This document shows, piece after piece, positions 29,011 through 30,853 of a stretch of 64,000 nucleotides of DNA. Positions within the stretch are counted from its first letter, which is position 1. Each line of letters starts with the position of its first letter. The stretch spans positions 2,542,001 through 2,606,000 of the forward strand of contig NZ_CP019067.1 of NCBI RefSeq assembly GCF_001989615.1. The letters are read 5' to 3'. Source of the DNA: Halorientalis sp. IM1011. Lineage in GTDB: Archaea; Halobacteriota; Halobacteria; Halobacteriales; Haloarculaceae. The notes beneath the pieces were generated by a model. The model worked only from the letters and a program-made list of their open reading frames with translations. It had not been told where the DNA came from and made no database searches. The translations under genes and the position numbers were made by a program.

Positions 29011-29283
29011 ATGGCCCGACCACAGCTCGAAACCGCAGCAGCGGACCTCCGGACAGCAAGCGACGCCACGAACGGCGATGCGAGCGACCGACTGACGGAA
29101 CTGGCCGACCAGCTCGACGACCTCGCGACCCGGGAGTCCGGCCCCGATCACGGCCGACTGGCCCGCATCCAGTCCGCGCTCGCCGATCTCGGCGACGAGG
29201 TGGGTGAGGCGGCCGGTGACGCCATCGACGACGCCAACGACGCGATCAACGCCTACCGCGAGACCATCGAGGGCGGCGTCTGA
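29011..29283 (+). CDS. small helical protein, paralogue A1
   Basis: 90 residues, acidic, all helix by pattern, no cysteines or spans. It shares a layout with the next gene: an N-terminal A..LR.AS segment, a central DRLTELADQLDDL, then GRLARIQSALADLG, and an end with DAINAYRETIE. I read the pair as a duplicated haloarchaeal family of unknown function (resembling the DUF7553 type, not checked). A TATA-like box lies 27 bases upstream. Confidence 0.68.
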   Translation: MARPQLETAAADLRTASDATNGDASDRLTELADQLDDLATRESGPDHGRLARIQSALADLGDEVGEAAGDAIDDANDAINAYRETIEGGV

Positions 29284-29332: not shown

Positions 29333-29599
29333 ATGCGACAGGAACGGACGGGGATCGCGAAGGCACACCGCCAGCTACTGCTCGCGTCGGAACTGACAGT
29401 CGACCGCCGGCTGGCCGAACGGCTGGCCGATCTGGCCCATCAGGTCGGCGAACTGCCCGCCGACGGCCAGCACCGCGGGACCGTCCGCACCATCGAGGCG
29501 CAGCTTCGGGATCTGGGTCGGGACGACCATCCCGACGTGCGCGCGGCTGTCGACCGCGCCCGGACACTGCTCGTCGCCTACCGCGATCGGCCCGACTGA
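29333..29599 (+). CDS. small helical protein, paralogue A2
   Basis: 88 residues. It aligns by eye to the gene before: AHRQLLLASELTVDRRLAERLADLAHQVGEL, then GTVRTIEAQLRDLG and ARTLLVAYRDRPD, against DRLTELADQ, RIQSALADLG and INAYRETIE. It is more basic than its neighbour. Fifty bases separate the two genes and both read in the same direction, so a local duplication with divergence is likely. Function unknown. Confidence 0.65.
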   Translation: MRQERTGIAKAHRQLLLASELTVDRRLAERLADLAHQVGELPADGQHRGTVRTIEAQLRDLGRDDHPDVRAAVDRARTLLVAYRDRPD

Positions 29600-29632: not shown

Positions 29633-29642
29633 GTTTTTGTAC
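29633..29642 (+). promoter_or_regulatory. TATA-like box of VGD-repeat paralogue B1
   Basis: GTTTTTGTAC centred 28 bases before the ATG at 29665; leaderless spacing. Confidence 0.5.
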
Positions 29643-29664: not shown

Positions 29665-30192
29665 ATGTCAGGGGACGAAGGGATCGCGGGCCGTGACCGT
29701 GCGGAGATCGCCGAGCGAGTGCGGGCCGTCATCGCCGCGGAACTGAGTGAGGACGAAGCCGAGGAGATCGCACGGAGCGTCGCTCGCGCGATCGGCGAGT
29801 ACGTCGAAGACGAGGACGACGCTGAACGCCTCGTCAGGCAGGTCGGCGACGAGATCGTCGACAGACTCGACGGCGAGGCGGCCGACGATCTGATCGAAGC
29901 CGTCGCGGACATCGTGATGGACAATCTGCCCGGGCTCAGACACTCGGTCGTGATCCGCCGGTCCGTCCGCCGGATCGTCACACGACTCACCAGCGGCCGC
30001 TCGGAGGCCATCGTCCAGCAGGTCGGCGACGAGATCGTCGCGACGCTGATCGAGAACGGCCACGCCGAAGAGCTGGTCGACGCGTCACTGGAGATCGCCA
30101 TCGAGGCCGCCATCGAGGGCGGCTACGCCGAGGAACTGATCCGGGAGATCTTCGACGACGGCGTCACCCAGATCATCGAAGCGGACGGCTGA
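29665..30192 (+). CDS. VGD-repeat helical protein, paralogue B1
   Basis: 175 residues, acidic, soluble, built from repeated amphipathic helices. A repeat of about 35 residues recurs: RQVGDEIVDRLDGEAADDLIEAV, later QQVGDEIVATLIENGHAEELVDA, with a basic middle segment VIRRSVRRIVTRLTSGRS. The pattern 'VGDxIVxxLIExGHAEELV' alternates with 'AxxIAxxxxxGYAEELI'. The following gene is a clear paralogue. Heat-like or Armadillo-like solenoid folding is possible, but the repeat could also be a membrane-surface binding helix. No family known to me. Confidence 0.7.
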   Translation: MSGDEGIAGRDRAEIAERVRAVIAAELSEDEAEEIARSVARAIGEYVEDEDDAERLVRQVGDEIVDRLDGEAADDLIEAVADIVMDNLPGLRHSVVIRRSVRRIVTRLTSGRSEAIVQQVGDEIVATLIENGHAEELVDASLEIAIEAAIEGGYAEELIREIFDDGVTQIIEADG

Positions 30193-30239
30193 TCCGGTGG
30201 TCCGGACGCCGAACCCCCGCCCCACATGTGAGCGAGAAT

Positions 30240-30249
30240 CTTTACTTTT
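30240..30249 (+). promoter_or_regulatory. TATA-like box of VGD-repeat paralogue B2
   Basis: CTTTACTTTT centred 27 bases before the ATG at 30272. It decides the start: the upstream GTG at 30197 lies before the box and is unlikely. Confidence 0.55.
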
Positions 30250-30271
30250 CGATGGCCCGGTGGCCGAACAC

Positions 30272-30853
30272 ATGGGTGAGGCGTACCAGATCGAGTTCGA
30301 CGACACGGAACGGGCAGCAGTCGCAGAGACGATCAGGACGGGGATCGGCGACCAGCTGGACGACGACGAGATGGTCGAGGCCGTCGGCGCGCTGATCGCG
30401 GCCCGGGTCCACGGGGCCGACGACGACGCGGCCGTCGTCTCGGCGGTCGGCGACCGCATCGTCCACCACCTCGTCGAGGGCGGTCACTCCGACGCCATCG
30501 TGCAGGAGGTCGCAGATATCGTCATGGAGGAGCTTCCCTTCGGCGGAATGTTGATCAAACGCGCCGTCAAGCGCATCGTGAAGGGGCTGATGGGGCGCTC
30601 GGATCGCGTCGTCGAGGGCGTCGGCGACGTAATCGTCGAGAAACTGATCGAGGGCGGCCACGCCGACGACCTCGTCGAGGAGACGGTCGTCTACGTCGTC
30701 CAGCGCGCCATCGCGGAGGGGTACGCCGACGACCTCGTCGACGGGACCCTCGACGCCGGCCTCGACAACCTCGACGAACACGAGGGGATCGCCCCCATCG
30801 CCGCGTCCGTCGAGCGGGAGTTCCCGTCGAACGAACCCGCGTCCGCGGACTGA
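30272..30853 (+). CDS. VGD-repeat helical protein, paralogue B2
   Basis: 193 residues from the ATG at 30272. It repeats the architecture of its upstream neighbour: SAVGDRIVHHLVEGGHSDAIVQEVADIVMEELP, then a basic hinge MLIKRAVKRIVKGLMGRSD, then EGVGDVIVEKLIEGGHADDLVEE and QRAIAEGYADDLVDG. The central basic stretch is more positive than in B1 (KRAVKRIVKG) and could bind nucleic acid or lipid. Tandem paralogues with separate promoters suggest distinct expression of two related subunits. Function unknown. Confidence 0.7.
   Translation: MGEAYQIEFDDTERAAVAETIRTGIGDQLDDDEMVEAVGALIAARVHGADDDAAVVSAVGDRIVHHLVEGGHSDAIVQEVADIVMEELPFGGMLIKRAVKRIVKGLMGRSDRVVEGVGDVIVEKLIEGGHADDLVEETVVYVVQRAIAEGYADDLVDGTLDAGLDNLDEHEGIAPIAASVEREFPSNEPASAD

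Follow-up and report, generated by a model that had tools for sequence, protein, structure and literature searches.

An acidic protein family of Halorientalis and the Halorutilus family with two arms of predicted helical repeats around a basic hinge

Introduction

What does a haloarchaeal cell do with an acidic protein made of tandem helical repeats that are interrupted by a strongly basic segment? This question is raised by two neighbouring genes, here called B1 and B2, in a stretch of 64,000 nucleotides (the window) that forms part of a Halorientalis genome (G000, contig C1). We asked how the repeats are built, how the segment between them is kept, where relatives occur and which arrangement of the chain would best account for these features.

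Results

B1 and B2 are adjacent paralogues under purifying selection

B1 (29665..30192, + strand) encodes an acidic helical-repeat protein of 175 residues, and B2 (30272..30853, + strand, ATG at 30272) a paralogue of 193 residues, with net charges of -28 and -30, respectively. The two proteins share 41% identity, in agreement with the initial annotation, which had described them as tandem paralogues. Both are open frames with a 21-residue period and orthologues in other genomes, and the dN/dS ratio is 0.15-0.29 in ten B1 pairs and 0.15 in the single B2 pair (B2 against G004); B1 and B2 are real, conserved genes under purifying selection. Named records of these genes include Halorientalis persicus and H. 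regularis.

The TATA-like box that had been proposed for each gene was found in both cases, as a T-rich element about 23-32 bases 5' of the respective ATG. The box of B1 (TTTTTGTA, 29634..29641, + strand) lies in a region kept in four of the five aligned orthologues, and that of B2 (CTTTACTTTT, 30240..30249, + strand) is recognised by its sequence only. In the fifth orthologue (G007) the corresponding stretch is not comparable, because B1 has no ATG start there. At this locus (L066:7688-8566) B1 also lacks part of its N-terminal arm and B2 is reduced to a frame of 70 residues, so the pair seems to be decaying.

The arms are arrays of a 21-residue unit

Self-comparison of B1 and B2 gave the best match at an offset of 21 residues in both proteins, with a score reached by 0 of 500 shuffled sequences for B1 and by 2 of 500 for B2. 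The 35-residue repeat suggested earlier is incorrect; the motif VGDxIVxxLIExGHAxxLV does occur twice per protein, with substitutions, and covers two units of 21 residues. We mapped units in 20 proteins with a position matrix that was grown from one long relative and then refined on the same proteins as were scored, at a threshold that one shuffled window in 2,000 exceeds. Confident units number five in B1, six in B2 and 10-19 in seven longer relatives, the longest array, of up to 19 units, belonging to a protein of the Halorutilus family. The commonest residues of these units give a consensus of about x-[SA]-D-E-[LV]-V-x-D-V-[GL]-D-x-[IVA]-V-x-R-L-I-E-x-G, and the repeats align in other genes as well as in these two.

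In B1 the units occupy residues 52-92 in the N-terminal arm (29818..29940, + strand) and residues 112-174 in the C-terminal arm (29998..30186, + strand). The corresponding arms of B2 span residues 30-92 (30359..30547, + strand) and 109-171 (30596..30784, + strand). Each unit is predicted to be mostly one helix followed by a turn. AlphaFold2 models of two proteins (pTM 0.30 and 0.32) mostly place one helix of 13-20 residues in each unit, the longer model also containing two long fused helices, and no tertiary fold or arm contact is readable from them because their mean pLDDT is 46 and 49.

A basic helix separates the arms

The view that helical repeats flank a basic segment was borne out: a basic helix breaks the array once, at a fixed place, between the two arms. 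This hinge helix comprises residues 93-111 in B1 (HSVVIRRSVRRIVTRLTSG, 29941..29997, + strand) and residues 93-108 in B2 (MLIKRAVKRIVKGLMG, 30548..30595, + strand), each with a net charge of +6, and the most positive 20-residue stretch of either protein also reaches +6. The strongly positive hinge is therefore real when set against the overall charges given above. A helix of 16-19 residues breaks the array in all 16 long-type proteins tabled, where it comes after a unit ending in LPG or a variant of it, and it is basic in all long-type members.

The basic residues of the hinge lie on one face of an amphipathic helix. On a lipid-helix score with a cut-off of 1.34, ten of eleven long-type hinges pass and the eleventh reaches 1.30, in contrast to 0 of 2,808 windows outside the hinge. 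Four short relatives (123-132 residues) keep the place of the hinge, but three of them lack a cationic hinge and fail the score. A haloarchaeal group of short-chain dehydrogenases contains a basic amphipathic helix (AIDGLVLSNAVRRAVIGLMKTQAREFAP) that mimics the hinge and produces false matches, and these enzymes were rejected as members of the family.

The two arms match in length and differ in unit type

Across the family the lengths of the N- and C-terminal arms rise together, from about 61/43 to 223/205 residues, or from 2+2 to about 10+9 units. The correlation coefficient is 0.993 over nine paralogue groups (one protein per group, from the 16 tabled, with short forms left out), a value reached by 1 of 20,000 permutations. 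It is again 0.993 over 12 groups, once three of the four short forms are added, and is then reached by 1 of 100,000 permutations. Between two adjacent paralogues, G045a and G045b, the length difference is 42 residues for either arm. The frame of a further copy, G045c, reaches the end of its contig, and its final residues agree with the C-termini of related proteins. In most paralogue groups, then, the two arms agree in length. The N-terminal arm exceeds the C-terminal arm by 28 residues in B1, whose C-terminal arm falls short by about one unit, by 18-31 in the short forms and by 7-23 elsewhere. Under a stricter null, in which unit gains are dealt to either arm by a fair coin, four even contrasts are expected with P = 0.026, and by this standard the match is modest.

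The units of the two arms also differ in where they carry small residues. With the units that flank the hinge left out, position 10 is Gly or Ala in 34 of 46 N-terminal units vs. 3 of 47 C-terminal ones, and position 13 is Gly, Ala or Ser in none of the 46 vs. 36 of the 47, a comparison whose P values are too small because the units are related. The counts cover 11 of the 20 proteins, leaving aside short forms and other B1/B2 orthologues, counting both the G030 and the G057 orthologues and dropping weak N-terminal unit matches of five proteins. This shows that the arms consist of two different unit types. A unit-by-unit test of residue volume was weak (143/5,000). In all six Halorutilus-family proteins compared, units are more alike within an arm than across arms, and the arms have therefore grown separately; in B1 and B2 the likeness within arms is not consistently higher and the picture is mixed. 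The new findings are the agreement in arm length across 12 paralogue groups and the different unit types of the two arms.

The family is confined to two groups in the sets searched

Family members are present in seven of eight Halorientalis genomes, mostly at one locus, and in three of four genomes of the distant, streamlined Halorutilus line, where there are several copies; the fourth genome of that family is 64% complete. In a set of genomes drawn from the class, the family profile matched 9 of 391 and the short-form profile likewise 9 of 391, all in Halorientalis or the Halorutilus family. In a set drawn from the phylum, 2 of 392 genomes matched, namely G000 itself and G688, and the latter was discarded as a relative since its match is only a 69-residue frame. 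A wider spread within the order was rejected too: 33 of 392 genomes matched there, and the 23 that lie outside the two carrier groups were mostly short-chain dehydrogenase-like. Twenty of these 23 gave loci (L032-L051) and three gave none; the frames were read for 19 (all but L049), of which 16 resemble short-chain dehydrogenases (by eye, with two checked) and three are other frames. Searches of viral contigs (with the profile), plasmids (with B2 only) and phages (with B1 only) found no relative, and an origin from such elements was set aside.

The remaining Halorientalis genome, G001, was not counted as an eighth carrier, its match (E 3.4e-4) being a protein without the hinge. This 144-residue protein (L104:5265-5696) carries repeats of about 21 residues of the type VDxGGDVVxVAxENG, has no Pfam family and no basic hinge, and may be distantly tied to the B1/B2 family. 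In a tree of the core (94 columns), B1 joins the long forms of the Halorutilus family with support of 85/87, and B1 and B2 do not appear as a recent pair; their split may be old, or the tree may be too short to tell.

Gene neighbours give a weak link to lipids

Upstream of B1 lie two DUF7553 genes, at 29011..29283 (+ strand; PF24430, E 1.3e-26) and 29333..29599 (+ strand; PF24430, E 7.7e-8), which belong to the context and not to the family. This tandem pair sits between a crtB-like gene and B1 and is unequal in conservation. B genes stand beside DUF7553 genes and the crtB-like gene in six of the seven Halorientalis carriers. In the three sequences checked, those of the window, G001 and G003, the crtB-like synthase matches models of phytoene/squalene synthase at scores under the cut-offs, and the window also encodes phytoene desaturase, a prenyltransferase and cruF (bacterioruberin synthesis). 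In G001 and G003 the synthase and DUF7553 genes are present and the B gene is absent at that place, the B-family copy of G003 lying beside aRF1. DUF7553 was rejected as a partner common to both lineages, the match in G045 (E 0.008) being below cut-off.

Of the 11 copies in the Halorutilus family, four have a gene for an SCP2 lipid carrier no more than 4 kb away. The copies of 274/275 residues in G030 and G057 are directly downstream of it, and the short copies of G057 and G045 cluster with SCP2, acyl-CoA dehydrogenase and thioesterase genes, while the short copy of G030 has only a dehydrogenase nearby. In Halorientalis no SCP2 gene was found near the B genes, and a similar SCP2/acyl-CoA dehydrogenase cluster exists without a repeat gene. 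A paper on Halorutilus salinus reports beta-oxidation genes and does not use the word "repeat" (PMC10134839). The lipid link, which comes from gene neighbours in one lineage, is weak. For the lipid binding suggested in the initial annotation, the SCP2 genes beside some Halorutilus-family copies and the cationic amphipathic helix are weak circumstantial evidence.

A haloarchaeal cluster of this kind lies at L128:2260-9937 (about 801260-808940 of G000:C1) and also at L130 and L105, with some genes named by eye. It contains an HTH_10-type regulator, a ribonucleotide-reductase-small-chain-like gene, an 86-residue gene, a ferredoxin-like gene, two SCP2 genes and two acyl-CoA dehydrogenase genes, and looks like an uncharacterised lipid or acyl-CoA pathway. 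Its 86-residue gene in Halorientalis (L128:4213-4470), similar in appearance to the G045 gene, gave no DUF7553 match, a further ground for rejecting DUF7553 as the common partner.

Discussion

A paired-arm arrangement and its alternatives

With a probability of roughly 0.38, we favour the tentative reading that B1 and B2 are among the shorter proteins of a new acidic, all-helical, two-armed repeat family, in which the arms would pack against each other with the basic helix at the bend. That the arms are about equally long suggests such packing. The chain would bend at the LPG plus basic helix, and the N-terminal arm would lie against the C-terminal arm, within one chain or across a dimer, to give a rod whose length would depend on how many unit pairs it contains. 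Should the helices point up and down by turns along the array, the hinge helix included, unit n would have the same orientation in both arms, and on folding back a small residue of one arm could face a large one of the other. In a weaker step, the cationic amphipathic helix at the bend may make the contact, its likeliest targets being an acidic lipid surface or a partner protein, and the whole molecule may serve as a scaffold or spacer that is linked to lipid or peripheral to the membrane. The complete version, a rod of two differently evolved arms that folds back at the cationic helix, pairs unit by unit, lengthens in both arms together and docks on lipid through its basic tip as a spacer, appears unlikely to hold in all its parts. 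In short, the family is best read as a helical scaffold of paired arms whose cationic helix would make the contact.

A somewhat less likely alternative is an ordinary open alpha-solenoid that works like HEAT/ARM proteins and binds a partner protein; the basic helix would then be a single irregular unit, and few events would lie behind the arm match. In its favour, the PDB entries closest by profile are helical-repeat proteins of de novo design, the fair-coin null leaves the arm match room for chance, and two proteins match themselves somewhat better at 42 residues than at 21, as two-helix units would; in most proteins, however, the 21-residue period is the stronger, and the reciprocal swap of small and large residues between the arms is left unexplained. 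Matched arms are needed equally if the pairing takes place between two chains, which would form an antiparallel homodimer or, as B1 and B2, a heterodimer, the basic helices then lying midway along the rod. The adjacency of B1 and B2 would suit this arrangement, but a heterodimer is not required, since four genomes (G002, G003, G005 and G006) have one intact copy only, and we regard pairing between chains as unlikely.

Two further roles concern what the protein would bind. A nucleic-acid-binding protein using its basic helix is improbable: a net charge of +6 over 20 residues in so acidic a chain would favour it, but no nucleic-acid-binding family was matched at cut-off, the basic residues lie on a single amphipathic face and the charge is lost in short forms. 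A phasin-like coat of PHA granules is the least probable of all. Class III PHA synthase is above cut-off in all eight Halorientalis genomes searched, yet in G001 the synthase occurs without any repeat gene of the B1/B2 family, Halorutilus salinus (G030, 92% complete) gave no match for a PHA synthase while carrying three repeat genes, and G057 (88% complete, with repeat genes) has a sub-cut-off match only. As repeat genes and PHA synthase do not co-occur consistently, granule coating is disfavoured as a general role. Inclusion bodies taken for storage lipids have been seen in Natronomonas pharaonis, according to a haloarchaeal wax-ester paper (PMC11948995).

If the arms of the favoured paired-arm scaffold truly pair unit by unit, this would be a natural repeat protein whose two arrays evolve separately yet stay equal in number, and it would offer a simple test case for length control in repeat proteins.

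Comparison with known families

Among the members scanned, no Pfam or NCBIfam family was above cut-off, and we found no model for this gene family in either collection, in line with the initial annotation, which knew of no family with this repeat. PHROGs gave no match below E 0.001, and a profile search of the PDB gave no convincing natural match. Characterised natural solenoid families gave no match either: none of the HEAT or ARM repeat models exceeded its cut-off, and designed ARM proteins appeared at E 0.2-1 only. As the repeats also align outside B1 and B2, neither of the two outcomes that the initial annotation had named as refuting it was seen. Our literature search found no paper on a 21-residue helical repeat in archaea, nor on DUF7553. 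Judged by sequence comparison, this is a real family that is not matched to a described one.

The nearest Pfam candidate was DUF445 (PF04286), to which 8 of 15 members show weak profile similarity (best E 1.2e-5), with long runs of short acidic helices in common. Scores of 25.9 bits at best, 18.2 for B1 and 15.9 for B2 stay below the gathering cut-off of 33.8, and from one member to the next the match shifts along both profile and protein. DUF445 is a family of membrane proteins with transmembrane helices, and none of the 20 proteins has a stretch hydrophobic enough to cross a membrane (highest 19-residue Kyte-Doolittle mean 1.41). Membership was rejected on the score, the sliding register and the missing transmembrane stretch.

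The best PDB profile matches, 8cws, 8cwy and 5cwb (E 4e-5 to 7e-4), resemble the family in their near-ideal short helices in tandem. Being designed, they are not its relatives, and we know of no designed repeat protein with a central basic helix or a two-arm layout. GvpC, a gas-vesicle protein of haloarchaea, is likewise an acidic tandem helical-repeat protein, but its repeat is of about 33-40 residues rather than 21, and gas-vesicle families were not among the Pfam matches listed. In proteins of the SMC/Rad50 type, two equal arms of continuous coiled coil fold back at a central hinge and carry ATPase heads, whereas the arms described here consist of 21-residue helices in tandem and the proteins matched no ATPase domain; two equally long arms around a central hinge are what the two have in common, as an analogy of layout only.
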